Source of the DNA: Planctomycetaceae bacterium
GTDB lineage: Bacteria > Planctomycetota > Planctomycetia > Pirellulales > Pirellulaceae
Direction of reading: 5' to 3'
Length of the DNA: 39,204 nucleotides
Assembly (NCBI GenBank): GCA_002702965.1
Contig: PADE01000161.1
Location: 18,225 to 57,428, forward strand
The notes below the pieces were generated by a model. The model was not told the origin of the DNA, did no database searches, and saw only the letters and a program-made list of their open reading frames with translations. The first letter of the stretch is position 1. Every line of letters starts with the position of its first letter. This document shows positions 13,235 to 38,103 of the stretch, piece by piece. A program made the position numbers and the translations under genes.

Positions 13235-15238
13235 TCATTTGTTCAGGGTCCGGGCGACGCGGAATCCCCAGTTGTCGGCTTTGAACGAGAGGGCGAATAT
13301 CCACCGGGCCGTACAGCGGGTGTCGGGTCCCGGTTGGACATAACCGCCACCGCGCAAGGCCCGTTGCGTCTGGTTCGTGACTTGCTGGTCGCCCGGATCG
13401 TGATCGCTGGCGACTGCGGGGGACTTGGGAAACGATTTCGCGGCGATGGTCGTCCATTCCATAGCGTTTCCCAGAACATCGAACAGCCCGAATTCATTGG
13501 GTAGGCCGCGCCCCACTTCCCGCAAACGCTTGTTGCCGGAGTTCTTGGTGTACCAGGCGTAGCGGTCCAGCAGCGCTTCGGAATGGGCGAAGAAACGGTT
13601 GGAGGTCGCACCCGAACGGGCGGCGTACTCCCATTCGGCTTCGGTCGGCAGGCGATAACCGGTCCGCTGCAAGCAACCTGCGGCGATCTTCATGCCGGCG
13701 TTGTACTTCCCTGCAGGATTGGGCTGGTAGCACCACTCCTGCTCGGGAATGTTTTCCTGCCGGTTCAACCAGTTGCAGAACTCGGCGCACTGGTACCACG
13801 TGATCCGCGTCACCGGGCAGGCGAGGCTGGGTGCGATGTCTTCGTTGCTGTTCGTGTCGGGTTTGAACTGGCGAAACAGCTTCAGCGTGATCTCGAGGGC
13901 CGCTTTTTGAAGTCGACGAATGGTGGTTTGCTTTTTCAGCGCCAGCTGGCGCTGTTGCTGGACGCGTTCCAGGAGTGTGCGCGATTCGGAGTTATCGGGG
14001 GGTAACAACGACTCCGCCAGATCGAAGTCGCCGCGTTCAAACGCGCACTGCGCATACGCCAGAGACGCTTCACGGGCACCCTCTGCGGACAGGTGGTTTC
14101 CGGGCCACAGCGAACTCGCTTGTTCAAATCCAAACAGGGCGCGCGAGAAGAGCTCGTAGTCGCCCGCTGTTTTTGCCTGCCGAAGTGTCTCCTGGGCGGC
14201 CTGGGCCAACGCCCGGCTCTCCTGGTGGTTGGCGTACACGCGCAAGGCAGCTTGAAAGTCCTGGACCGTGGTGAACCGATGGGTCGGATCGGTTTCCATG
14301 GCGCGCTGCGCGATCTGGATCAGTTCGTCATCGCGCGAGGTGGGTTCGACACGATTGACCGCCGCGTGCTGCAGGCACTCCATCAGGTTGCGACCTGCAT
14401 GCGGCGGTCGGCCGGTACAAATTTCATAGAGCACGGCCCCTAGCAGGTAAATGTCAGTGTGACGCCCGATGGCGGTCAACTTGCCCTGCGCCATCTCGGG
14501 TGACAAGTAGGCTGGGGTACCGCAGCAGGCGTGCTGGTCGGGGGCAGCCCGCGCGCATTCTTCGATCGTGATGCCGAGTCCCCAATCGACCACCAGGACT
14601 TCGCCAAAATCCCCGACCATCACGTTTTCGGGCTTTAGGTCACGGTGCAGGACACCGCGCGAATGAGCGAAGGCGACAGCGTTACAGACGCTCTCCAGGA
14701 TGCGGAGGTTGTCGACTTCCTGTTTTTCGGTGAGGTTCTCTGCCCAGGGAATCCCCTCGATGCGCTTCATCGAATAGAACACCGAGGGCCCGTCGATCCC
14801 CACATCGTAAACGCGAACAATATTGGGGTGTTCCAGTTGCCCGGTGAGCGTCGCTTCACGAAGAAACTGCGATTGGGTTTGCGCTTTGTCGGCGGTGCTG
14901 TCCTTGATCGTTTTGACACAGACGGTGCGAGCCAGCGAGGTTTGCCGGGCCTGATACACGACGCCCGTCGCCCCCTCTCCGAGTACGCGATCGACCACGT
15001 AATCGGATTGGCGGGGAGCAACCGACGGATCCTCTTGGCTCACATGGCGCGCATTCGGCGAAGCCAACGCGTCGCGGCTGGTGACGGCTTTCGGTTCGCC
15101 CGTCGCGCCGTCGTGCGTGAGCGTTTGATCGATCCGAGTGTCGTTTGCCAAGGACTGAATGGTCTGCTGCCAGTTGCCGGTGACGTCTGGTGAAAACGCG
15201 CGAAAGTCACCCGTTTGGTCAAAATTCGGGGAGGGCAT
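13235..15238 (-). CDS. Serine/threonine protein kinase fused to a C-terminal FGE/sulfatase-modifying-factor-like domain
   Basis: Kinase motifs VLGEGATGVVYQA, VCVKTIK, VLHRDLKPENVMVGDFGEVLVVDWGLG, GTPAYLSPEMAQG. C-terminal FGE-like RLPTEAEWEYAARSGATSNRFFAHSEALLDRYAWY...GRGLPNEFGLFDVLGNAMEWT...GFRVARTL. Start 15238 chosen because the longer ORF overlaps the next gene. Confidence 0.92.
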   Translation of the reverse strand: MPSPNFDQTGDFRAFSPDVTGNWQQTIQSLANDTRIDQTLTHDGATGEPKAVTSRDALASPNARHVSQEDPSVAPRQSDYVVDRVLGEGATGVVYQARQTSLARTVCVKTIKDSTADKAQTQSQFLREATLTGQLEHPNIVRVYDVGIDGPSVFYSMKRIEGIPWAENLTEKQEVDNLRILESVCNAVAFAHSRGVLHRDLKPENVMVGDFGEVLVVDWGLGITIEECARAAPDQHACCGTPAYLSPEMAQGKLTAIGRHTDIYLLGAVLYEICTGRPPHAGRNLMECLQHAAVNRVEPTSRDDELIQIAQRAMETDPTHRFTTVQDFQAALRVYANHQESRALAQAAQETLRQAKTAGDYELFSRALFGFEQASSLWPGNHLSAEGAREASLAYAQCAFERGDFDLAESLLPPDNSESRTLLERVQQQRQLALKKQTTIRRLQKAALEITLKLFRQFKPDTNSNEDIAPSLACPVTRITWYQCAEFCNWLNRQENIPEQEWCYQPNPAGKYNAGMKIAAGCLQRTGYRLPTEAEWEYAARSGATSNRFFAHSEALLDRYAWYTKNSGNKRLREVGRGLPNEFGLFDVLGNAMEWTTIAAKSFPKSPAVASDHDPGDQQVTNQTQRALRGGGYVQPGPDTRCTARWIFALSFKADNWGFRVARTLNK

Positions 15239-15338
15239 GGCCGTCACCTTCGTTGCCGAATCGATCGGTATGGTAAAGCGATTCTGATCGGCGATCTCGG
15301 GGCGTTTACCGGTTGGGGGGGATGGATCTCCCCGGGGA

Positions 15339-16469
15339 CTAGACCAGACGGAGCGTCGCCAGTAGTAGGTCGGCTTGCTTGGCAGCGCCTCGTTGATATC
15401 CCTGACCATCGTAACAGGCGATCAGTGCCCGCCGCTTGTCGAGTACGTGAAAATCGGGGTAGGAGACATCGCGCCCCCAAATCAAGGGCATGTGGGTGAC
15501 CCACCGCAAACGTTTTTGTTCGCGGTCCAGGCGGAAGATACCGGTCCGGGTGGTTCCCGGTTGATCGTCGGGAAAGGACTCGCTGCTGGTGCGACCGGCG
15601 ACCAGGACGGTGTCACCGACCAGGGCCGCTGCGGGGCCACCCAAGCCGTTGATCGGAGAGGACTCCCACGTCGTGTAAGGCGGTTTGGAGATCGAGAGAC
15701 GTCCCTGACGAGTGAAGGCCAACAGCGAATCGTCGGGCAGGAACAAAAGGCTTGTTTCGGTGAAAGCGCCTTGCAGAATGGTCGAAACCGGTTGCCATCG
15801 TATGCCGTCGGTGGATTGCAACAACTCGACACGCCGGTCACCCCGCATGATGTCAGCTGCCACGTAGTACCGGCCGCGATGGGCGACCGGTTTCCACCAG
15901 GAGAACGTTGGATCGTAGCATGGCTGGGGTGGACTCCAATGGTGACCGTCGTCCGATACGCTCACCTGGGTGTCGATCGGGTCGCCCCTTTGGCTCGCGG
16001 CATCACAACGGACGACATAGGCGAACAGTCGGGCGGGGGTTACCAGCATGTGGACTTCTGCGTCGTCGCCCGGGGTGTCGAGGGCCTCGGTCAACTGCCA
16101 TTGACGCGGCTGATTCGCCGTCGATTTGAGCAGGCTGATGCGGCCGTCGCTGGAGAGGTGTTCGGAGCCGGAGCGAAAAAAAATCCAGTAGTGGTTTTTC
16201 CAGAAGAAGATCGATGGCCGACCGTTCCAGCGGCCATCGGCATGAATTTTCTCGACACGTTCCAAGAGGACATCCGGCCCGTTCGCTGATCGATTGGAGT
16301 GCGCCACGCCACCGCGTGCCGCACTCGCCAAAGGTCCCCAACCGGGTAGGGCCGCGGTGGCCAAGGCGGTTTGTACAAAGGCGCGCCGCGAGCGATTCCA
16401 GCCTGAGGGTATCTTCTGGCGTCGAATGGGGATACTGGTTGGGGCCCGTCCGTTGTGCGGGGAGCTCAT
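15339..16469 (-). CDS. Tat-exported sialidase/BNR-repeat-like protein (exo-alpha-sialidase-like fold)
   Basis: N-terminus NRSRRAFVQTALATAALPGWGPLASA is Tat-like. Repeats DGRISLLKSTANQPRQW, DTQVSVSDDGHHWSPPQ and RVELLQSTDGIRWQPV are BNR/Asp-box-like. ATG at 16469. Confidence 0.72.
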   Translation of the reverse strand: MSSPHNGRAPTSIPIRRQKIPSGWNRSRRAFVQTALATAALPGWGPLASAARGGVAHSNRSANGPDVLLERVEKIHADGRWNGRPSIFFWKNHYWIFFRSGSEHLSSDGRISLLKSTANQPRQWQLTEALDTPGDDAEVHMLVTPARLFAYVVRCDAASQRGDPIDTQVSVSDDGHHWSPPQPCYDPTFSWWKPVAHRGRYYVAADIMRGDRRVELLQSTDGIRWQPVSTILQGAFTETSLLFLPDDSLLAFTRQGRLSISKPPYTTWESSPINGLGGPAAALVGDTVLVAGRTSSESFPDDQPGTTRTGIFRLDREQKRLRWVTHMPLIWGRDVSYPDFHVLDKRRALIACYDGQGYQRGAAKQADLLLATLRLV

Positions 16470-22457: not shown

Positions 22458-22559
22458 CCGAGGGAACTCCGAAAACACTCCCAGATAGGTTATTATGCGA
22501 CCCCGTCAGCGACACGTCGCGCGAGGCTTTGAATCACCACAGAATAGCGGGAATGACTG

Positions 22560-23576
22560 ATGCGCCCAAACGACAATCGGCTTTTCCATACACGACGAGG
22601 GTTTTTGGCGACCGCGGCGGCGGCCGGAGGGTGCCTCGCGGCGAGGCCGTTGCCCGCTGCCGAGAAACCGTCCGAGAAGGCCCAGATTTGTCTCACGCTC
22701 GATCTCGAGATGAGTCGGCATTATCCACAGCGCGGCATATTTGAGTGGGATTTCCAGAAAGGGAATCTCGATGATGCGACCAAACGTTATGCGGTCAAAG
22801 CGGGAGAGCTGGTCCGTGATCGAGGTGGAATCATCCACTATTTTTGTGTGGCGCGTGTGCTCGAGCAGCCCGACGTGGCCTGGCTCAAACAACTCGCGAA
22901 GACGGGCCACCCGATTGGCAACCACACCTACGACCATGTGAATGTCAAAGCGACGACGGTGCCGTCCGTACAGTTTCGCTTTAAGCGCGCCCCCTGGCTG
23001 GCAGGGGGCCGCAAGCCCCCGCAATTGATTCGCGACAACATTCAGTTGGCGGACGCGGCGCTGTCGATGCGAGCCGGTATCCAGAGCCGCGGTTTTCGGA
23101 CCCCGGGTGGTTTTCACTCCGGTTTGGACGAACGTCCGGATCTCCAGAAGATGCTCCAGGAGTTGGGCTTTACGTGGATCAGTTCCAAGTATCCACGGCA
23201 TCTGGCGGGTAAACCGTTCGAGAAACCGACCCCCGACATACTCGCCTCGGTGGTCGCGGCCCAAGCGCAAGCCCAGCCCTACGTCTACCCCGGCGGCCTG
23301 GTCGAAATTCCGATGAGTCCGGTGAGCGACGTGCATGCGTTCCGGTCCACCCGCTGGAAGTTGGACTGGTTCTTGGAAGCCATTCGCGGCGCGGTTGAGT
23401 GGGCGATCGAGCACAGGGCGGTCTTTGATTTTCTGGCCCACCCCTCCTGTCTGGGCATCGAGGATCCCGCCCTGGAGACGATGCAGATGATCTGTGAGCT
23501 CGTCAAGCAAAACGCGGATCGAGCGGAAATTGTCAGCCTCGATGCGGTGGCTAAGCGCGTACTGGCACAAAAATAG
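22560..23576 (+). CDS. Polysaccharide deacetylase family (NodB fold; D-x-E first motif), Tat-exported
   Basis: Tat signal HTRRGFLATAAAAGGCLAA. CLTLDLEMSRHYP (motif 1 variant), GHPIGNHTYDHVNV (H-x-x-x-H), SRGFRTPGGFHSG (R-x-P-x-G), FDFLAHPSCLG. Confidence 0.88.
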   Translation: MRPNDNRLFHTRRGFLATAAAAGGCLAARPLPAAEKPSEKAQICLTLDLEMSRHYPQRGIFEWDFQKGNLDDATKRYAVKAGELVRDRGGIIHYFCVARVLEQPDVAWLKQLAKTGHPIGNHTYDHVNVKATTVPSVQFRFKRAPWLAGGRKPPQLIRDNIQLADAALSMRAGIQSRGFRTPGGFHSGLDERPDLQKMLQELGFTWISSKYPRHLAGKPFEKPTPDILASVVAAQAQAQPYVYPGGLVEIPMSPVSDVHAFRSTRWKLDWFLEAIRGAVEWAIEHRAVFDFLAHPSCLGIEDPALETMQMICELVKQNADRAEIVSLDAVAKRVLAQK

Positions 23577-23612
23577 TTCGATCGCATGGGCCGGAAATGA
23601 CGGAGGGGAACC

Positions 23613-23654
23613 ATGATTGCTACCCTGTTCGAGATCGGCAGTGGAGACTCGTAA
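23613..23654 (+). CDS. Putative 13-codon mini-ORF/leader peptide MIATLFEIGSGDS
   Basis: ATG at 23613 preceded by cggaggggaacc (strong SD), stop TAA 23652-23654, about 20 nt before the next gene start. Confidence 0.3.
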   Translation: MIATLFEIGSGDS

Positions 23655-23674
23655 GAAATAAAGGTGCTGGACGC

Positions 23675-25216
23675 ATGCTGGTCGGTTATGTCAGTGACGA
23701 GGATTACGTGGCGATCCCCGACTGTCTGGTCCACGTCCAACAAGACGACGTGGTCTGCGATGTCCGATCGAGTGCCAACGGTGCGATCTATGCGGACGTG
23801 ACAGCTGGCCGTTACCGGATCACGTTGGCGAGTCGGGGGCACAGTTCGAAGTCGGTCGAGGTCGATGTCGGCGGAGAGCCGGTTCAGTTTCGCTTGCCGA
23901 CCGATCGGATGTACGGTCTGATGTGGCCCAAATGGAGCCGCAGTGGCGAGGTGTCTGAGTACTGTGTCCACAGTACCGAGGCATTCCGACTGGATCTTTG
24001 GCGTTACGGTTGGGAGAAGGAATGGGTCCGCAGCTACGGCTGGTGCGACGAGCACGGACCGCGCGCCATGACCCAGATTCTCCCGGATGGCGATTTCACA
24101 CAGACCGGCGTGAAGTGGAACCGCACCGGATACACGCTGGAATTTCAGAAACACGGGCTTGTCACGCCACAGCGCAGCGGGCTCTATTTTCTCCACGCCC
24201 AGAAACGTAGCGGCGAGACCTGCGTCTTTCCCTGGATCGTTTCGCCTGCCGAGCCGCAGGCGCAGGTCGCGGTGCTGTCATCGACCCTGACCTGGAATGC
24301 TTACAACCGGTTCGGCGGTCGCAGCAATTATTTCAGTCAGGATGCGCTTCCCGAGACGCCCGTCGTCAACGCCCGTCAGGACCTGGGGCGTTACCTGAGG
24401 CCAGACGAGTGGCCGTTTGGTGAACACGGCGCCCCGCTCTCTTTCCAACGCCCCGAACCGGACAGCCAGGTTCCTGTGGAAGACCGGATCACCGATCCGA
24501 TCGCGGGTCGGATGGGTTCGGCGCTGGCGCCAGGCGAATGGCGGCTGTTGGGATGGCTGGAACGCGAGGAGTTTGCCTACGACCTCTATTCGGAGACCGA
24601 ATTGCACTTTGACCGGATCGATCTGGATCGCTACCGCGTGCTGGTGTTGAACAACCATCCCGAGTACTGGACCGCCCCGATGTACCGGCGGGTCAAGGAG
24701 TGGGTCTACGACCGCGGCGGCAAGTTGGTCTATCTGGGTGGCTGTGGTCTGTACGCCGAGGCGGAACTTCCCGACGAGGCGACGATGCTCTGTCGTCAGG
24801 AGGGCGCGCACGATCAACGTGGAGAGTCTGAAGCTCAGCTGCTGGGGGTTGCATATTCACACGGTGGTTTTCAGACCGGTGCCCCCTACCGGGTGCTGGC
24901 CGGCGACCATTGGGTGTTCGCCGGCACCGGTCTGGCTGCGGGGGACCTGTTTGGCCATCGAAGCCTGCACGAGCGCTGTCCGGGTGGCGCCTCGGCGCAC
25001 GAATTGGACAAAATCAGCCCGCATTCACCCCCCGGAGTCTGCCACCTGGCCAAGGGAGAGAACCCCGATCAGAGCGGCGCCGACATGGTCTGCTTCGAGA
25101 CGCCCAGCGGTGGGGCCGTGTTCGCCGCGGGGTCAATGTGCTGGACACTCTCTCTGCCGATCGACGACGGGGTTTCCGCGGTGACCCGCAACGTGCTGCG
25201 GACGTTTCTCGGTTGA
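23675..25216 (+). CDS. N,N-dimethylformamidase beta-subunit-like domain protein with an N-terminal Ig/carboxypeptidase-regulatory-like domain
   Basis: VLSSTLTWNAYNRFGGRSNYFSQD, RYRVLVLNNHPEYWTAPMYRRVKEWVYDRGGKLVYLGGCGLYAEAEL, and C-terminal GGAVFAAGSMCWTLSLPIDDGVSAVTRNVLRTFL are typical of the DMF-ase large-subunit family. Start ATG 23675 gives MLVGYVSDEDYVAIPDCLVHV. Confidence 0.85.
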   Translation: MLVGYVSDEDYVAIPDCLVHVQQDDVVCDVRSSANGAIYADVTAGRYRITLASRGHSSKSVEVDVGGEPVQFRLPTDRMYGLMWPKWSRSGEVSEYCVHSTEAFRLDLWRYGWEKEWVRSYGWCDEHGPRAMTQILPDGDFTQTGVKWNRTGYTLEFQKHGLVTPQRSGLYFLHAQKRSGETCVFPWIVSPAEPQAQVAVLSSTLTWNAYNRFGGRSNYFSQDALPETPVVNARQDLGRYLRPDEWPFGEHGAPLSFQRPEPDSQVPVEDRITDPIAGRMGSALAPGEWRLLGWLEREEFAYDLYSETELHFDRIDLDRYRVLVLNNHPEYWTAPMYRRVKEWVYDRGGKLVYLGGCGLYAEAELPDEATMLCRQEGAHDQRGESEAQLLGVAYSHGGFQTGAPYRVLAGDHWVFAGTGLAAGDLFGHRSLHERCPGGASAHELDKISPHSPPGVCHLAKGENPDQSGADMVCFETPSGGAVFAAGSMCWTLSLPIDDGVSAVTRNVLRTFLG

Positions 25217-25258
25217 CCAGGGAGTCCGCGCGCTGCGGTACAGATAAGGGGATTCCTG

Positions 25259-26650
25259 ATGAGTGAAGCCGATCACAACGTCCGATCCACTGCTGCGGAC
25301 GCTGCGCCTACCCGTATCCGCTGGATGGTGTTGGCGCTGGTCTCGTTTGCCTCGGCCAGCGCGTATCTGACGCGGCACTGTATTGCTGCCGCCAATACGA
25401 CGATCCAAGAAGATCTCGGCTTTAACGACCAGCAGATGGGGCGGATCATGAGCGCCTTTGCGCTCGGCTATCTGTTTTGCCAGGTTCCCGGGGGCTGGCT
25501 GGGGAACCGCTTTGGCACGCGGTTCGGATTTGCCTTCATCAGCCTGGTGTGGTCGCTGTGCAGCGTCTGGTCGGGGATCGCTTCGTGGTTCTGGAATCTG
25601 TGGGCTTCGCGATTTTCGCTCGGCATTTTTCAGGCGGGGCTGACCCCGATTTCAGGGAAAATCCTGCAGGACTGGATCCCTCTTCGACACCGCGGCAAGA
25701 GCAGCTCATGGATCGGCGCGAGCATGTCGCTGGGCGGCGCTTTTACGATGTGGTTTACCGGCTGGCTGCTGCAGCGCGAGTACGGTTGGCGGGCGATCTT
25801 CAACGTGTATTCGCTGGTCGGCATCCTGTGGGCAATCCTGTTCTATTGGTTTTTTCGTACGTTTCCAAGGGAGCACGCTGGGGTCAACGCGGCCGAACTG
25901 GAACTGATCGAGGTGTCTGCGGAATCGGAATCAAATGTGGACGAACGGAATCCGGTCGCGCACCGCAGGGGACCTGCACGAAGCCACGACGAAACAATCG
26001 CCCACGCCAGCGGAGGTGGGGTGGTGTTCTGGAAAATGCTCACCAGTGCTTCGATGTGGGCGCTGAGTATCCAGTCGTTCTTTCGAGCGGCCGGATACGC
26101 GTTCTTCGTGACTTGGTTCTTCGCATTCTTGGAATACGCCCACGGCATGACCAAGTCCGAGGCAGGTTTCTACAACAGCCTGCCGTTGATGGCGGTGATT
26201 GTGGGAAGTCTCTCCGGTGGTCTGATCGTCGACCACTTGTGGCGTGCCACGAACAGCAAGTGGATCAGCCGTAGTGGAACGGCGTGTGTTGCGCTGACTG
26301 TCTGCGCGTTCTTCACGTATGCTTCGACGTGGACGTCCTCAGCGGAACAACTGGCGACGGTCATCGCAATCGGCGCGTTGTTTTCAGGAATCGGCAGTCC
26401 GGCCGCCTGGGCGGCGACGATCGACATGGGCGGCCGCCATACTGCGGTCGTGATGGGAACCATGAACATGGCGGGTTGTGTGGCCGGTGTCGTACTGCCG
26501 ATTGTGCTGGGAAACTGGTTCGATCGGATTAAACAAACGGGTGGCGACTGGGATCCCGTAATCTATTTACATGCCGGCTTCTATTTGTTGGGCGCGGTGA
26601 GTTGGCTGTTTGTCAATCCGAGCCTGTCGCTGGATGCCGAGGACGTTTGA
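25259..26650 (+). CDS. MFS transporter (ACS/anion:cation symporter-like)
   Basis: TM-rich; YLTRHCIAAANTTIQEDLGFNDQQMGRIMSAFALGYLFCQVPGGWLGNRFGTRFGF, SRFSLGIFQAGLTPISGKILQDWIPLRHRGKSSSWIGASMSLGGA. Confidence 0.92.
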   Translation: MSEADHNVRSTAADAAPTRIRWMVLALVSFASASAYLTRHCIAAANTTIQEDLGFNDQQMGRIMSAFALGYLFCQVPGGWLGNRFGTRFGFAFISLVWSLCSVWSGIASWFWNLWASRFSLGIFQAGLTPISGKILQDWIPLRHRGKSSSWIGASMSLGGAFTMWFTGWLLQREYGWRAIFNVYSLVGILWAILFYWFFRTFPREHAGVNAAELELIEVSAESESNVDERNPVAHRRGPARSHDETIAHASGGGVVFWKMLTSASMWALSIQSFFRAAGYAFFVTWFFAFLEYAHGMTKSEAGFYNSLPLMAVIVGSLSGGLIVDHLWRATNSKWISRSGTACVALTVCAFFTYASTWTSSAEQLATVIAIGALFSGIGSPAAWAATIDMGGRHTAVVMGTMNMAGCVAGVVLPIVLGNWFDRIKQTGGDWDPVIYLHAGFYLLGAVSWLFVNPSLSLDAEDV

Positions 26651-26752
26651 GAGGTACCAGGCGGAGGGGTGCTGACCGTTTGTGGCGGTCCGTGCGGTGC
26701 CGAGACGGGAAGTGGGCAAACCGGAGCTCTGGACGGGGGATGAAGGAAACCG

Positions 26753-27649
26753 ATGCTGTTTGACACACATACCAACTTGATGTGGTATCCCGACCATCTG
26801 TCGGACGAATTTGTCGAGTTCGCCTGGGAAGCCAAGCGGGCCAAGATGAAGCTCTCGGATGATGTCTACTTCGCCGGCAGCGACGTCAAGGAGGCGAATG
26901 CCTTCGACTCCCGCCCGGAGCAGCTGCTGGAGGCGACCGCCGAGGCCGACCGCGTCATTGTCTTTGGTATTCAGGCTCCCTTTACGGGGATCACCGCCGA
27001 TCAGGAGCGGATCGCCGCATTCGTTCAGCAACACGCGGACCGGTTTGTCGGCTGGTGCAGTGTCGACCCGAACGACGAGGAATGCGTCGATCAACTCGAA
27101 TACTACGTCAACGGTCTGGGGCTGCGTGGTCTGAAGTGTTCACCGATCTACCAGAACTGGGATCCCCAGGACCCGCGACATCTGCCGCTGTTCCGGAAGG
27201 CCGAACAGCTGGGGATCCCCGTCAACATCCATCAGGGGACATCGTTTGTCCGCCCCGGACCTCTCAAGTACGCCAACCCGATCCAGCTCGAGGATATCGC
27301 CATTGCCTGTCCGGACCTGAGGATCGTGATCGCCCACATGGGGCATCCCTGGGAAGATGAGTGCGTGGTTCTGATCCGCAAGCACCCCAACCTGTACGCC
27401 AATATCTCGGCGCTGCACTACCGACCGCTGCGGCACTACCAGGCTTTCATGTCGGCGATCGAGTACGGCGTCGAACACAAGTTGATTTTTGGTTCCGATT
27501 TTCCGTCGGCCACGCCGTCCCAGGTCATCGCCGGTCAGCAAAAGGTCAACCGGATTGTCGAGGGGACGGCGCTACCGCGGATTTCCGACGAGATGATCCA
27601 CAACATCATCTACGAAAACTGGAAACGGTTTCTTCCCGAGCATGTTTGA
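26753..27649 (+). CDS. Amidohydrolase_2 (ACMSD-like) TIM-barrel protein
   Basis: LFDTHTNLMWYPDHL, GLRGLKCSPIYQNWDPQDP, IPVNIHQGTSFVRPGP, LRIVIAHMGHPWEDE, LIFGSDFPSATPSQVI. Confidence 0.9.
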   Translation: MLFDTHTNLMWYPDHLSDEFVEFAWEAKRAKMKLSDDVYFAGSDVKEANAFDSRPEQLLEATAEADRVIVFGIQAPFTGITADQERIAAFVQQHADRFVGWCSVDPNDEECVDQLEYYVNGLGLRGLKCSPIYQNWDPQDPRHLPLFRKAEQLGIPVNIHQGTSFVRPGPLKYANPIQLEDIAIACPDLRIVIAHMGHPWEDECVVLIRKHPNLYANISALHYRPLRHYQAFMSAIEYGVEHKLIFGSDFPSATPSQVIAGQQKVNRIVEGTALPRISDEMIHNIIYENWKRFLPEHV

Positions 27650-27681: not shown

Positions 27682-28494
27682 TCAGCTTGTTCGCTGGCGC
27701 CAGTGCCGGAACAGGGGTTGCACGTCCGCGGGCAACGCCTGGTAGGCTTCATTCGGAATCGAGGGGACCCGGTTTTCGTCCCGTCCCGATTCCCCACACA
27801 GCCGCCGCCGTTCGTCCGACTCCGGTCGCAGTACTTCTAAGTTGAGCCACCAGGGGGCGTAGCGGACCGCCAAGGCGACTCGAGGTTCGCCGGTTTGATT
27901 GGCTGCGGTGGCGTGCCACAGGCGGCTGTCCATGACCAGCACGCTACCCGCATCGCCGGAGATCTGGACTTCCCCTGACAGCTGCTGGTGCGGGTCGGGT
28001 CCGGCGACGGAGGTCGGATTGGAATCACGTCGATGGCTGCCCGGTAGTACCAGCGTGCCCCCATTCTGTTGGCAGAACGGAGAGAGCATCCAGAGTGTGG
28101 TAATGTGCATCCGCAGGTCGGGATAGGGGGCCGGCAGGCGCCCGGCGTTGTGCTGGTTGAACGGCCAGTCGGCGTGCCAGCCGCCCCGCTCGTTTCCGAG
28201 CTCGTTGACGATCGCGGAAGTGAAGGAGATCCGTAGATGTTCTCCCAGACACTCCGCCAACAGCGCCGTGAGTCGGGGTTCGACCAGGTAGGGTGCAAAG
28301 CAGCGGGTGTGATTGACCAGTCCGGGGACAAAACCGACATGCCGGGGCGCACCGTCCCCGCGGTGTTCGGCCACCACCGCCAGCACCTCGGCGCGGACCG
28401 CCGGTAATTGCGTCGCCGGAATGACTTGCGTGAGCATACAGAAGCCACGCTTGTCGAGGGCATGCAGCTGGTCGGCGAGTGTGTTGGATTCCAT
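27682..28494 (-). CDS. Phytanoyl-CoA dioxygenase (PhyH) family Fe(II)/2-oxoglutarate oxygenase
   Basis: GGWHADWPFNQHNAGRL (H-x-D), TTLWMLSPFCQQNGGTLVLPGSHR, VLVMDSRLWHATAANQTGEPRVALAVRYAPWW (distal His and Arg). ATG 28494 MESNTLADQLHALDKRGFCML; the longer ORF N-terminus looks non-coding. Confidence 0.92.
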   Translation of the reverse strand: MESNTLADQLHALDKRGFCMLTQVIPATQLPAVRAEVLAVVAEHRGDGAPRHVGFVPGLVNHTRCFAPYLVEPRLTALLAECLGEHLRISFTSAIVNELGNERGGWHADWPFNQHNAGRLPAPYPDLRMHITTLWMLSPFCQQNGGTLVLPGSHRRDSNPTSVAGPDPHQQLSGEVQISGDAGSVLVMDSRLWHATAANQTGEPRVALAVRYAPWWLNLEVLRPESDERRRLCGESGRDENRVPSIPNEAYQALPADVQPLFRHWRQRTS

Positions 28495-32103: not shown

Positions 32104-32134
32104 GGATCTCGTTGGTGGATCTCGTTGGTGGATC
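32104..32134. repeat. 13-bp direct tandem repeat (ggatctcgttggt x2 plus partial third copy) in the 5' leader
   Basis: ggatctcgttggt at 32104-32116 and 32117-32129, then ggatc. Confidence 0.85.
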
Positions 32135-32180
32135 GGTACCGGATGGGCGTCACCCAAAGCGCGACTCAAAGGAGATCACG

Positions 32181-35100
32181 ATGCAGGTCAACTCGGTTGT
32201 CGGTCGAGGTCGGAGGTTTAAGGCGCTGGTCTCAGTGGCGTTCATGGTGGGTTTCGCGGGAGCGAGTGTTGGTGTGGCCAGCGAGCTTTCTGAGCAATTG
32301 GCGCGACGCGCCGGGCTGAAACGGGCGGTGACGGCACTGCTCGGAACGGACACGGAAGTGGCCGTTGATCTGGCGCACACGACGGAGTGGTTGATCCACG
32401 TGCGCATGCCGAGTGGCGCCAAAGGGCTGCGCGATCTGGCGCAACAGGCCGGGTTAGGGATCGACCGGCTCGTCGCCGAGAATGGGCCGCTGGACCGCTT
32501 GCCGTACGCGGACAACACGCTCGATGTGCTGATCGCCACGGAGGCCGGAGGGGAGGCGTTGAGCGACCTTTCGCTGTCCGAGATCCTGCGTGTGCTGCGA
32601 CCCGAGGGAACCGCCATCATTGGAAAAGCGCTCCAATCCAACGGTGCCGATGCTGACCCCGCAGCCCTCAAGAAATGGGCCAGCGGTGGCCGCACGACCG
32701 AGGTGGCTGAATGGAGTGACGACACGGGGACCTGGGTACAATTCGGCAAGCCGCTCCCTGCCGGGATCGATGAGTGGACACACTGGGAGAAGGGACCGGA
32801 TAACAATCCGGTCTCGACCGACTCGGTCATTCGGGCGCCCTACATGACCCAGTTCATGGCAGATCCTCTATACATCGGTATGCCATCGGTGACCACTGCC
32901 GCGGGGGGCCGGACGTTTCTGGCGATTGGACACATCGCCCATCACGCGCGGGAGTGGGACACGCTTTACAAGCTGATCGCCCGCAATGGCTACAACGGCA
33001 CGGTGTTGTGGTCCCGCGACCTGCCGGACGGCTATCAGGTCCATCGGTCTGCCTTTATCGCGACGCGAGACACGTTCTACATGATCAACGGGGACCATGC
33101 TCTGCTACTGGATCCTGCGACCGGCCGCGAACTCGGCCGTGTGCGATTGCCGGGCGTGCCCGGATTCTGGAAGTGGATGGTGCTGCGCGACAACGTGCTG
33201 TTCGTGCTGACGGGGAAACGCGAGCCGGGGACGCGGGCCATGAAGGGCGATCGCACCTTTGGTGGCTGGAGTTGGGGTGATTTGAGCGCCGGTTATTACG
33301 GGAAAGACGTACCGTACGGGTTCGGGCATACGTTAGCGGCCTACGATTTGAAGGAAAAACAGTTGCTTTGGAAGCACCGGGAAGAGACGCTAATCGATTC
33401 GCGGGCGATGTCTTTACAGGGCGAGAAAATGTTCCTGTTCTGTCCGGACAAACACGTCCGCTGCCTCTCGACGACCCAGGGGGAGGTGATCTGGACCAAT
33501 GACGATCCGCAGGTTCGAAATCTGATCCAACAGCCGGGAAAGGGACTCACCTCCACACCCGGTTTTCGCACGATGTGTATCACCATGGCCAGCCCGGATG
33601 CTTTGGTCATTCAAGGCCAGACACGCATGAACGTGACGGCGCTTTCCACCAAAGACGGGTATGTGCTCTGGACGAAACGGAAGGTGACCAACAATCCCAA
33701 CGCCATCTTCGTGGATGGCAAAATCATTTTGGGAGTCGGCCAAGGGGGAACGCATGTGGCGATCGACCCGCTGTCGGGCAAAGAATTAGAGGACCTCAAG
33801 TTCCGCAAGACAGCGTGTACGCGCCTGACCGCCAGTGGCGATTCGTTTTTCTGCCGCGGTGAAGGGACACTGCGTTACGACCGGGAATCGAAACGGGTGT
33901 TGATCGATGGGGCGCAACGCCCTGCCTGCAACGACGGCGCGATCCCCGCGCACGGCCTGTTGTATTTGGGGCCTTGGCAGTGCGACTGCAATCTCAGCTT
34001 GATCGGCAACATAGCCAAGTGTTCGGCGGGCGATTTTGATTTTGATCGCCGGGCGACGGCGGCTGAGAACCTTACCGTCGGTCGTGATGACCTGACCCAG
34101 GTGAAGGCCTTTCCGATTACGAATCGTGATTGGCCGACTCTCCGCGCCGACAATGACCGCTCTTCGTCGACACAGGTTAAGACGCCCACGTCGGTGCAAC
34201 GCCGTTGGCATTTCCTGCCCGACCGCGACTTCCGACCGGTTCCGGCGGTGGCAGCGGGCGGCCTAGTCTTCAGCACCGGTACCGATGGCGCTGTGCGGGC
34301 GATCGTTGCAGACACCGGTGAAGTCAGCTGGGTCTTTCCGACCGCGGGTCCGATTAAGCAACCCCCCACACTCTGGGGGGATCGCCTCTACGTCGGATCG
34401 GGTGACGGACACGCCTATTGCCTGGAAGCCGCTAGTGGAGAACTGTTGTGGAGTTTTCGCGCGGCGCCGATCGAGCGGCACATCATGGTCTACGGCAATC
34501 TGACGTCGACGTGGCCGGTTAACAGTGGGATCCTTGTCGACCAGGGCACCGCCTATCTGGCGGCCGGTATCGTCGACCACGATGGAACTTATGTCTACGC
34601 ACTGGACGCGATTACCGGCGAGATCCGCTGGCAGAACAACGCCAGCGGACATCTCAGTCCGGCGCTGCGCAAAGGGGTCAGCGTGCAGGGCAACCTGTCG
34701 CTACTGGGAGATCAACTGTTACTGGCGGGTGGGAACCAGGTCTCACCGGCCATTTACGATCGCCGCACGGGCGAATGCCGAGCCAAGCCATTTGATCAGG
34801 GGCAGCCCAAGGCCAACGCCGGCCAGTTTGTCGGCGTGTTCCAGAAGGTGTCGGTCATGGTCGGTGGTCGAATTCTCTATTCGGCGGCTGAAAATGTGGC
34901 CACCAAAGGGTGGTTTAATGTCTTCGGCCGGAGCGCTGCGTACCGCTTCAACAGTGGAGGAATTCCGCCAGCCTGGAACGACGATACGTTGGCGGTCGTG
35001 GACTTCAAGCACGGCAAAGTCGCTGCCTGTGACAGCAAGATCGTGGCCGCGCAGATCGATCAGGGCTACGGCGATACCACGGAACGACGAGGTTGGCTAC

Positions 35101-35417
35101 GCAGTATTTCGACTTCGCTGCGCGAGCAGGGTGCGATGCGCTGGCAGTCGGATCTGGACGAGGGAAACAAGTTTGAAACGATCTCTCTGGCGGTCTCTCC
35201 CAATGCGGTGGTGGCGGTACTCCGGTTCCAGCAGCGATTTCGTTCGCAGACACAGTGGTTTGTGGTGGCGATGAACGCAAAAACGGGAGCCGAACAGTTC
35301 CGCCATGAACTCCAGGTGGATCCGCTCCCCGGAGGATTACTGGTGGATCGCGATGGCCAGGTGATCGTGACCATGATCGACGGCGGTCTACTCTGCTTGG
35401 GTGGTAATGACCCTTAA
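32181..35417 (+). CDS. Secreted PQQ-like beta-propeller protein with N-terminal methyltransferase-like module
   Basis: Signal-like N-terminus; LDRLPYADNTLDVLIATEAGG..LSLSEILRVLRPEGTAII is MTase-like. Propeller blades: ALSTKDGYVLWTKRK, AIVADTGEVSWVFPTAGPIKQPPTLWGDRLYVGSGDGHAYCLEAASGELLWSFRAAPIE. SD aaggagatcacg before ATG 32181. Confidence 0.9.
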   Translation: MQVNSVVGRGRRFKALVSVAFMVGFAGASVGVASELSEQLARRAGLKRAVTALLGTDTEVAVDLAHTTEWLIHVRMPSGAKGLRDLAQQAGLGIDRLVAENGPLDRLPYADNTLDVLIATEAGGEALSDLSLSEILRVLRPEGTAIIGKALQSNGADADPAALKKWASGGRTTEVAEWSDDTGTWVQFGKPLPAGIDEWTHWEKGPDNNPVSTDSVIRAPYMTQFMADPLYIGMPSVTTAAGGRTFLAIGHIAHHAREWDTLYKLIARNGYNGTVLWSRDLPDGYQVHRSAFIATRDTFYMINGDHALLLDPATGRELGRVRLPGVPGFWKWMVLRDNVLFVLTGKREPGTRAMKGDRTFGGWSWGDLSAGYYGKDVPYGFGHTLAAYDLKEKQLLWKHREETLIDSRAMSLQGEKMFLFCPDKHVRCLSTTQGEVIWTNDDPQVRNLIQQPGKGLTSTPGFRTMCITMASPDALVIQGQTRMNVTALSTKDGYVLWTKRKVTNNPNAIFVDGKIILGVGQGGTHVAIDPLSGKELEDLKFRKTACTRLTASGDSFFCRGEGTLRYDRESKRVLIDGAQRPACNDGAIPAHGLLYLGPWQCDCNLSLIGNIAKCSAGDFDFDRRATAAENLTVGRDDLTQVKAFPITNRDWPTLRADNDRSSSTQVKTPTSVQRRWHFLPDRDFRPVPAVAAGGLVFSTGTDGAVRAIVADTGEVSWVFPTAGPIKQPPTLWGDRLYVGSGDGHAYCLEAASGELLWSFRAAPIERHIMVYGNLTSTWPVNSGILVDQGTAYLAAGIVDHDGTYVYALDAITGEIRWQNNASGHLSPALRKGVSVQGNLSLLGDQLLLAGGNQVSPAIYDRRTGECRAKPFDQGQPKANAGQFVGVFQKVSVMVGGRILYSAAENVATKGWFNVFGRSAAYRFNSGGIPPAWNDDTLAVVDFKHGKVAACDSKIVAAQIDQGYGDTTERRGWLRSISTSLREQGAMRWQSDLDEGNKFETISLAVSPNAVVAVLRFQQRFRSQTQWFVVAMNAKTGAEQFRHELQVDPLPGGLLVDRDGQVIVTMIDGGLLCLGGNDP

Positions 35418-35485: not shown

Positions 35486-36580
35486 TCAGGGCGTGACGCA
35501 GGCCCGCATCACCGAGCGGTCGGCTGCTTGACGGAAAGCGTGGTTGATCTGTGCTAGCGGAAAGCAGGCTTCGATCAGCTCGCCAAACGGCAAGTTCGTC
35601 CGTTCGCGGAGGACGAAATCGTGCGCCTGGATCAGGTGCCGTGGATGATAATTGTGGATTCCGCGCAGTGTGATCATGCGCTGGACCAGCAGATTTGCGT
35701 CAAACGTGATGTCGGCACCGGGGCTCACCAGGCCGGCAGTCGTGTACCGTCCACCTTTGCGCAGCATCTCGAGTCCGGCGGGAATCACACCGGCGACTCC
35801 GCAGACTTCGAGGACCGCGTCGGCCCCATCGGGGGGTGTCTCGCGGCGCACTGCCGCAATCAGGTCGTCCCCCACGAAGTCATCGGCATTGAGCGTGCAG
35901 GTAGCGCCGAACCGGCGCGCGGTTGCCAGCCGCGCGGGGATCGTGTCGATTCCGATCACCCGTGTCGCCCCGCGCGCCCGTGCCATCGCCACACCGTAAA
36001 TGCCCAGCAGTCCCAGCCCCTGGATGACCACTGCGTCGCCCAGACCGATCTGGGATGCTTCGCAGACCGATGCCATCGTCGCCGCGGCGCAGTTGAGAGG
36101 TACGGCTTCTTCGTCGCGTAGTTGGTCAGAGAGCTTGAGCACTCCGGTGCCGGGCATCACGTAGCAGTACTCGGCGAACCCACCCAGGAAGTGGGGTTCG
36201 GAATCAGCCGCTTCGTGACCGTATTTACGGAGTCCGCCAGCCTTTTGCGGTAAGTCGTGGAGGTCCTGGTAGTAATCCGTGCCGTCGTGGAAGAACTCGG
36301 TCCAGGTAATGCGGTCGCCGACGGCCAGGGTCTGACCCCGTAGGTCACAACGCATTTGCGATCCCTGCTGATCGATGGTTCCGATGATCTCGTGTCCGAG
36401 AATTCCCGGGCAGGGGTTGGGGCGCTTACCCTGCCAGGAATGAATGTCCGAGCGGCAAATCGAGCTCATCGAAATGCGCACCAGTAGTTCTCCGTCGGCC
36501 ACCGGGCGGAGTGGAAATTCCCGGATCTCAAACGGTTGGTTGGGCGATTCGTAGACCGCGGCGCGGGCTGTGGTTGTCAT
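35486..36580 (-). CDS. Zn-dependent MDR alcohol dehydrogenase, phosphonate-catabolism-associated type
   Basis: GELLVRISMSSICRSDIHSWQGKRPNPCPGILGHEIIGTI, AVVIQGLGLLGIYGVAMARARGATRVIGID, cofactor-domain motifs. ATGA overlap with the phosphonoacetate hydrolase gene. Confidence 0.9.
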   Translation of the reverse strand: MTTTARAAVYESPNQPFEIREFPLRPVADGELLVRISMSSICRSDIHSWQGKRPNPCPGILGHEIIGTIDQQGSQMRCDLRGQTLAVGDRITWTEFFHDGTDYYQDLHDLPQKAGGLRKYGHEAADSEPHFLGGFAEYCYVMPGTGVLKLSDQLRDEEAVPLNCAAATMASVCEASQIGLGDAVVIQGLGLLGIYGVAMARARGATRVIGIDTIPARLATARRFGATCTLNADDFVGDDLIAAVRRETPPDGADAVLEVCGVAGVIPAGLEMLRKGGRYTTAGLVSPGADITFDANLLVQRMITLRGIHNYHPRHLIQAHDFVLRERTNLPFGELIEACFPLAQINHAFRQAADRSVMRACVTP

Positions 36581-37845
36581 GGGGCTGGGGTTTTCCGTTT
36601 GTTGCTGCGGGTACCATTGATCGCGAAGTCGAAGATATCGTAGTTGTTGAGAGGCGTGTGACCAATCCTCGCGGAATACGTGGACGTCAGCGGGTGCGAG
36701 AGAAGAAAGGGGACTCGTTGCTCTGACAGACCACCATGTGATCGAAGCCGATAGGATCCCAGCGCGCTCAGGTCGTGCTCACCACACCGCTTGCCGATTG
36801 CGAAGTGCGGGTCGCTGAGCACGACCAGATCGGCTTCGCGGTCTGCGGGCAAGGAGAAACGCTGGCAGGCTTCGTCACGGGGCCAAGCCCCGTCGATACC
36901 CGGCAGCTGTCGGATGAAATCGAGTACCGTGGGGACTGGCAGGACTCCGCAATAGACTCGCGCGAACCCGCCCAGCGCCCCGTGGTGTACGACGTAGGGG
37001 TCGGTGATCGGTAAGATGACTTTGGCTTGATCGTGGCCAAACGCCCGTTGTAACTCGTCTTGCAAGTAGACCACCTGTGGGCTCCCGTCGTCACGGGACT
37101 TGTCGCTCATGCCGTGGTCGGCGACGATCCCGAGAACGATGTCCAGCTTGGCTAGCTCACCGATCCGCTCGTCGAGCTGGCGGTAGAAGCGATTGGACTG
37201 AAACGATCCAGGAGCGAACTTGTGTTGTACGTAATCGGAAAGTGACAGGTAGACTAAATCGTACCGCTCGCGCTCGAGCAAGCGAATGCCCGCATCGAGG
37301 ACGAACAGCGACAAATCCGCCGAGTAGACATCGGGCAGCGCGCGTTCCACAAGTTCGAGTACCCCCTCGACGCCGTGTTGACTGTGTGTACAGAGGTCGG
37401 CGCATTCGGCCGAGAAACAGACAAACCGTGAGTCGACGCGTCCCGCAGCCAGCAGCCTGCACAGTTTATCCTTGGCCGAGATCGCCGCCACGCGGGCACC
37501 GCGAGACGCGAATCCTGCCAGGATGGTCTCGGCGCGCAACAAGCGGGGGTCATCCATCATGACTTCGACGCCACGCTGCGTGTCGAGAAAGTAATTGCCC
37601 GAGATACCGTGTTCGCTGGGCGGGAGTCCCGTGACAATCGAGACGTTGTTGGGGTTAGTAAAACTGGGCATGGCGCTGTGGGCAATCTCGTAGAAGCCTC
37701 CCTGCTTGAGCTGTGCCAAATGCGGCAGGATCCCGTCCTGGAAACCTCGCTCCAGATATTCCGGGTCGCAGCCGTCAACGCAGACCACAACCACGGGGCG
37801 CTCGGGCCAACGGTAGGTGATGTCGTTGATTGTGATGTTCGGCAT
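36577..37845 (-). CDS. phnA: Phosphonoacetate hydrolase (alkaline-phosphatase superfamily)
   Basis: MPNITINDITYRWPERPVVVVCVDGCDPEYLERGFQDGILPHL, SAMPSFTNPNNVSIVTGLPPSEHGISGNYFLDT, GIVADHGMSDKS, YRLRSHGGLSEQRVPFLLSHPL. Start ATG 37845 inferred from family-like N-terminus. Confidence 0.85.
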   Translation of the reverse strand: MPNITINDITYRWPERPVVVVCVDGCDPEYLERGFQDGILPHLAQLKQGGFYEIAHSAMPSFTNPNNVSIVTGLPPSEHGISGNYFLDTQRGVEVMMDDPRLLRAETILAGFASRGARVAAISAKDKLCRLLAAGRVDSRFVCFSAECADLCTHSQHGVEGVLELVERALPDVYSADLSLFVLDAGIRLLERERYDLVYLSLSDYVQHKFAPGSFQSNRFYRQLDERIGELAKLDIVLGIVADHGMSDKSRDDGSPQVVYLQDELQRAFGHDQAKVILPITDPYVVHHGALGGFARVYCGVLPVPTVLDFIRQLPGIDGAWPRDEACQRFSLPADREADLVVLSDPHFAIGKRCGEHDLSALGSYRLRSHGGLSEQRVPFLLSHPLTSTYSARIGHTPLNNYDIFDFAINGTRSNKRKTPAP

Positions 37846-38103
37846 CGCGGGCACCGGCAGACCAGGGAACAGCGACGGACTCATCAACCGGGTCGTGACG
37901 ACCCCGTCCGCTGCGGGCAATGTAGCAGAACCGGTTGCTGGGAATCTGGCCACTTCGGTAAACAGGATGAAGGTCTGGCTAGATTGCGTTAGGATGACTC
38001 ACTGGTCGCGGGATGTGTGGGACTGCGCCGTTCACTGCGTGGTTGTCACCGTAGCGGCACGAACCCGTGGAAACAGCGGACGCTGACAGCAGAGGAGAGA
38101 TCG

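Follow-up and report, generated by a model that had tools for sequence, protein, structure and literature searches.

Genes for a DMF-ase-like protein, an MFS importer and an amidohydrolase form the conserved core of a planctomycete gene cassette, and their linkage is beyond chance. In the clade to which the DMF-ase-like protein of this cassette belongs, the aligned sequences carry a new, clade-wide replacement by Cys of the residue equivalent to Asn547 of DMFase. The cassette may serve the catabolism of an amide-type (N-acyl amino-acid-like or similar) organic acid, including its transport, C-N hydrolysis and carbon-skeleton conversion, a reading from sequence to which we assign a probability of about 0.5.

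Gene layout of the locus

The window, i.e. the whole stretch of 39,204 nucleotides that was analyzed, lies on contig C241 of a planctomycete genome (G000; 7.2 Mb, 302 contigs). Among named relatives, the closest is a marine MAG labelled 'Planctomycetaceae', obtained from the Red Sea. The features of the locus are as follows:

22479-22559, divergent intergenic region between a transglutaminase-like gene (-) and the deacetylase gene (+), likely the promoter region
22560-23576, + strand, NodB-fold deacetylase (polysaccharide deacetylase family; PF01522, E 1e-7)
23675-25216, + strand, DMF-ase-like protein, Cys-type, 513 aa (PF20254, E 5e-55; hhalign; Foldseek)
25259-26650, + strand, ACS-type MFS importer, 463 aa (PF07690, E 2e-47)
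26753-27649, + strand, PF04909 amidohydrolase, here called amidoH1, 298 aa (PF04909, E 1e-36)
about 27682-28491, - strand, PhyH family oxygenase, convergent with the operon (PF05721, E 2e-17)

The four + strand genes, with gaps of 98, 42 and 102 nt, are placed as the sequence-only reading had placed them, their assignment to the NodB-fold, DMF-ase-like, MFS and amidohydrolase families agrees with the Pfam matches, and the PhyH gene faces the operon and is followed by a SASA-SMP30 fusion and an SDR, as described. The open reading frame of the DMF-ase-like protein opens at 23597. Its start is best put at 23675, because homologues begin with MLVGYVSDE and a Shine-Dalgarno-like AAAGGTG precedes that ATG, and the gene thus likely spans 23675-25216 on the + strand. 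Promoter and terminator scans gave no signal above chance, and no sigma-70 match was found at 22479-22559.

Elsewhere in the window, 35486-37953 (-) encodes the phosphonoacetate hydrolase PhnA (TIGR02335, 542 bits, above the cut-off), which overlaps by 4 nt an alcohol dehydrogenase nearest to TIGR03366 (a proposed phosphonate-linked family; 273 of 328 bits), and this region is likely a phosphonate module. A 1101-aa protein (32112-35417, +) combines a weak methyltransferase-like N-terminal match with PQQ/BamB-type beta-propeller repeats, and a Ser/Thr protein kinase (13235-15409, -) has a C-terminal GldK-like (formylglycine-generating-enzyme-type) region.

Conservation of the cassette

Full-length homologues of the DMF-ase-like protein (E <= 1e-80) were found in 46 of 197 related genomes, and more came from Acidobacteriota, Latescibacterota, Gemmatimonadota, Chloroflexota, Verrucomicrobiota, Armatimonadota and Actinomycetota. 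Orthologues of amidoH1 (77-93% identity, with the next drop to 43%) were present in 15/197 Pirellulales genomes, and all 15 also carry a DMF-ase-like gene (hypergeometric p of 4e-11 by genome and 2e-7 by genus, uncorrected for phylogeny); among the genes examined, seven of these 15 genomes have Asn-type DMF-ase-like genes alone. A grouping of the DMF-ase-like gene with the MFS gene and/or amidoH1 recurs in most of L147-L160 and in L188, L191 and L196, and the DMF-ase-like/MFS/amidohydrolase grouping was found in other planctomycete genera; the MFS partner is also present in an acidobacterial MAG. The sequence-only reading had made its operon depend on conserved co-occurrence in relatives, and for the DMF-ase-like, MFS and amidohydrolase genes such conserved neighbourhood was observed. 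Its proposal that all four genes form one operon-like cassette holds in part: these three are linked across genera, whereas the deacetylase is linked within the genus only.

The deacetylase adjoins a DMF-ase-like gene elsewhere only in L147 and L199 (the latter partial), both of the same genus, and was therefore dropped as a core member. Its translation contains HTYDH and LAH motifs, the former, as NHTYDH, matching the H[ST]xxH metal motif of NodB carbohydrate esterase 4, and its PF01522 match is above the cut-off; a search for a PDB relative found none. With its linkage to the cassette limited to the genus, and with a Tat-like signal (TRRGFLATAAAAGG; TAT model score near the cut-off), it is accessory rather than a core step. 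The PhyH, SASA-SMP30 and SDR genes lie beside the cassette in the same genus only (L123); none of them was found next to it in the further relatives that were examined. With synteny confined to the genus, we dropped them as pathway members, and with them the oxygenase, dehydrogenase and lactonase steps that had been suggested.

The DMF-ase-like protein and its Cys clade

The DMF-ase-like protein consists of a CarboxypepD_reg-like N-terminal domain and a DMFA2_C catalytic domain, and hhalign matched it to DMFases and acylase-like proteins (probability 100, E 7e-40). A structure model built from 99 sequences reached a pLDDT of 95.6 (an earlier one from 9 sequences was poor, at 59), and a Foldseek search with it returned, by far at the top, DMFase (6lvb, E 1e-20) and N-acetyl-(R)-beta-phenylalanine acylase, both of which are amide hydrolases.

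Residues were mapped onto Paracoccus DMFase, with functional residues taken from PMC7686228 and numbering for the window according to the 513-aa protein. The HPEYW motif noted earlier is retained, and Y210 (=Y399), H328 (=H519), E330 (=E521) and E443 (=E657) are kept. The equivalents of the DMFase Fe ligands Y399 and E521 and of H519 are invariant in 99/99 family members, as is that of the catalytic Glu657. For the second Fe tyrosine, Y440, hhalign sets opposite it F248, which is aromatic and not conserved as Tyr; an alternative candidate, the Tyr before PLSF, is Gly in the window protein. The oxyanion Asn547 of DMFase is replaced by C357, a change that the sequence-only reading had not noted. 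Since N547A inactivates DMFase (PMC7686228) and the whole clade has Cys at this position, the window protein cannot simply be taken to hydrolyse amides. The gene for the small subunit DmfA1 is not adjacent in the window, where the neighbours are the deacetylase and MFS genes; a dmfA1-dmfA2 pair is present, for comparison, in L134. With the Asn547 residue replaced and no small subunit gene beside it, we rejected filing the window protein as a DMFase.

At the Asn547 position, the 99-sequence alignment has 17 Cys versus 82 Asn. Cys occupies it in all 17 full-length members of the window clade, and Asn is also found in true DMFases and acylase-like proteins. The Cys proteins form one clade (SH-aLRT 100) with one change on the tree when diagnostic columns were removed, the tree being a quick one with SH-aLRT support and no bootstrap. 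Two further positions differ in this clade: the conserved Tyr/Phe before PLSF is Ala, Gly or Ser, and the Thr beside the catalytic Glu is Leu. The equivalents of Y399, H519, E521 and E657 are 100% kept in its 17 members.

In 13 of these 17, the MFS orthologue lies at most three genes away on the same strand. AmidoH1 is nearby in eight (the L147 copy being cut by the contig end), and the MLE enolase described below in four, plus L191 with a broken reading frame. The Cys-type gene often stands beside another C-N hydrolase gene: the NodB deacetylase (window, L147, partial L199), a penicillin amidase (L150) or a member of the FmdA (formamidase) family (L152, L157, partial L194). In L149, L153 and L191 it is in tandem with a second, Asn-type DMF-ase-like gene, and no further C-N hydrolase was recognised beside it in L155, L158, L159, L160 and L188. 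The three tandems, from Fuerstiella-like MAGs, are natural pairs for comparing both active sites. A penicillin amidase gene lies directly upstream of the DMF-ase-like gene not only in L150 but in L037, with weak PvdQ similarity in the latter.

Transporter, amidohydrolase and recurrent partners

The best NCBIfam match of the MFS protein was TIGR00893 (D-galactonate transporter subfamily), at 184 bits against a cut-off of 395. In most relatives its orthologue adjoins the Cys-type DMF-ase-like gene or the amidohydrolase gene. The amidohydrolase had been called ACMSD-like, and this stands at the superfamily level, as it has the PF04909 barrel; however, it has no NCBIfam match, its best PDB relative is the uncharacterised BB4693, and an ACMSD-like function was therefore dropped. 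The N-terminal HxH metal motif of ACMSD is HxN in 21/21 amidoH1 orthologues (DTHTN in 20, DIHTN in 1); all 26 paralogues of amidoH1 have HxH. A second, paralogous PF04909 amidohydrolase with the conserved HxH occurs in 30 genomes; 13 of the 15 amidoH1 genomes are among them, and its gene is often found divergently upstream. The window's genome has it away from the cassette as a candidate pathway gene.

In other genomes, amidoH1 neighbours the MFS orthologue, an MLE (muconate-lactonizing) subgroup enolase and a DHDPS-family protein. Orthologues of this enolase (61-77%) were found in nine genomes, all nine amidoH1-positive. The window's genome carries it on contig C224, unlinked to the cassette, in a cluster whose gene order seems to match that in a sister genome, where an M28 peptidase gene and a DHDPS-family gene flank the enolase; in this genus, the DHDPS protein beside the enolase is closest to 5-dehydro-4-deoxyglucarate dehydratase. 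The same cluster in the genus (L201, L202) also contains genes for a BNR-repeat protein, a 7-bladed lactonase and a PQQ-type protein. With its MLE KxK/K pattern intact, the enolase comes closer to the entries for N-succinylamino-acid racemase and muconate cycloisomerase than to those for sugar-acid dehydratases. Hydroxyproline catabolism was considered and rejected, the second NCBIfam match of the enolase, cis-3-hydroxy-L-proline dehydratase, being far below its cut-off.

Furthermore, M28, M19 and M81 peptidases, a class IV aminotransferase and an N-acylamino-acid-racemase/epimerase-like enolase recur nearby. An MLE enolase of one cluster is beside or near Asn-type DMF-ase-like genes in 12 loci, several with a 4-nt overlap, and FmdA-family genes lie upstream of Asn-type genes in Gimesia-like genomes. 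In Jiangella (Actinomycetota), an Asn-type gene occurs with genes for a peptide-binding protein, DHDPS, MFS and MLE enolase; Jiangella muralis is a carrier of the Asn-type cassette that can be cultured.

Proposed function and alternatives

Gene identity, conserved linkage, co-occurrence, altered residues and predicted fold, as read from the sequences, are the basis of the following model. The MFS protein would import an amide-type organic acid, and a C-N hydrolase would open the amide. The Cys-type DMF-ase-like protein, with its DMFase fold, His/Glu/Tyr/Glu set and changed oxyanion position, may be an enzyme that acts on a related amide intermediate. Finally, the amidohydrolase, in other genomes together with the MLE enolase (racemase, epimerase or cycloisomerase) and the DHDPS-family lyase, would convert the carbon skeleton to central metabolites. 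The amide-type uptake and catabolic role suggested by the sequence-only reading thus fits the conserved neighbours and the recurring C-N hydrolases, peptidases, MLE enolase and DHDPS-family lyase, and, taken together, the observations support a cytoplasmic catabolic cassette directed at amides. The acylase among the structural relatives, the enolase of racemase/epimerase type and the nearby peptidases and aminotransferase favour a substrate that resembles an N-acyl amino acid; sugar-acid chemistry is possible.

Against an amide cassette speak the Cys at the Asn547 position and the seven amidoH1 genomes with Asn-type genes alone. Partners also differ from locus to locus, and in the window neither the enolase nor the lyase is linked to the cassette. 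In addition, the MLE subgroup includes muconate cycloisomerases, the DHDPS protein of the genus is nearest to 5-dehydro-4-deoxyglucarate dehydratase and the MFS protein to the galactonate-transporter group, affinities that would suit a route for sugar acids or cyclic acids just as well. In sugar-acid (uronate/aldarate) catabolism, the MFS protein, closest to TIGR00893, would import a hexuronate-type acid, the amidohydrolase would be a lactonase, and the enolase would act as dehydratase or cycloisomerase. The DHDPS protein would be a KdgD-like dehydratase, in line with the 5-dehydro-4-deoxyglucarate dehydratase similarity of the one beside the enolase in the genus, and amidases would only strip amide or N-acetyl decorations. 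The PF04909 and MLE families include known lactonases and cycloisomerases, and the NodB deacetylase in the window would suit such a role. However, all NCBIfam scores are far under their cut-offs, the MLE KxK/K pattern and nearest relatives of the enolase point to racemases and muconate cycloisomerases, and peptidases and an aminotransferase recur nearby, so that we consider this route rather doubtful. That the genes are merely neighbours with no common pathway would agree with the lack of promoter or terminator signal beyond chance and with the genus-only linkage of the deacetylase, PhyH, SASA and SDR genes; it is very improbable given that the neighbourhoods recur across planctomycete genera, the MFS partner reaches an acidobacterial MAG and co-occurrence is strict.

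A separate question concerns the Cys-type protein itself, which might be a catalytically dead or repurposed paralogue, such as a binding or regulatory subunit, while the neighbouring amidase and amidohydrolase do the work. Three active-site-region positions are changed clade-wide (N to C, Tyr/Phe to Ala/Gly/Ser, T to L), and a second amide hydrolase often accompanies the gene; nevertheless, the four DMFase residue equivalents are intact in 17/17, and the invariance of the Cys itself speaks for a function and not for decay. We regard a dead or repurposed paralogue as unlikely. We tentatively propose, at well below even odds, that the members of the Cys clade constitute a new subfamily of enzymes with the DMFase fold, their chemistry changed by the oxyanion Asn to Cys replacement (e.g. 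thiol-dependent acyl transfer or hydrolysis, or altered metal use), and that they work alongside an HxN amidohydrolase and an MLE racemase in an undescribed planctomycete pathway.

To our knowledge, very few proteins with the DMFase fold have been characterised, and understanding of the unusual mononuclear iron site of this amidase is poor. A ready comparison set is offered by a large family, mostly from planctomycetes, in which a catalytic residue has undergone one clean natural exchange: Asn- and Cys-type paralogues coexist in single organisms, as tandem genes in the case of Fuerstiella-like MAGs, and the window's own genome has Asn-type paralogues on contigs C184 and C194. The cassette points to an undescribed route of amide use by marine planctomycetes. 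Within the searchable papers, we found none that combines DMFase with planctomycetes or gene clusters.

Comparison with known systems

The cassette-partner enolase shares the KxK and metal-ligand pattern of known MLE enolases (N-succinylamino-acid racemase 2p88, L-Ala-D/L-Glu epimerase 1jpm, muconate cycloisomerase), but scores below all NCBIfam cut-offs and is unlinked in the window's genome. Similarly, amidoH1 has the domain and the conserved Lys/His/His/Asp motifs of COG2159/PF04909 amidohydrolases (BB4693, PDB 3irs; ACMSD, lactonases and decarboxylases by superfamily), but HxN replaces the first metal-binding HxH, and it reaches no curated family. The window protein resembles the DMFase large subunit (Paracoccus DmfA2, PDB 6lvb, PMC7686228) in its catalytic fold, HPEY and the Y399/H519/E521/E657 equivalents. 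It differs in length (513 versus 762 aa), in having a CarboxypepD_reg-like domain in place of any matching domain I-II N-terminal sequence, in the N547 to Cys change, in an equivalent of Y440 that is not clearly kept, and in the absence of an adjacent small subunit gene. N-acetyl-(R)-beta-phenylalanine acylase (PDB 8huy, 8i5a) has the same fold (Foldseek E about 1e-20) and the HPEY and E-L-D motifs, yet is only 17-18% identical to the window protein and has Asn at the oxyanion position; because this acylase shares the fold, the fold is not limited to DMF.
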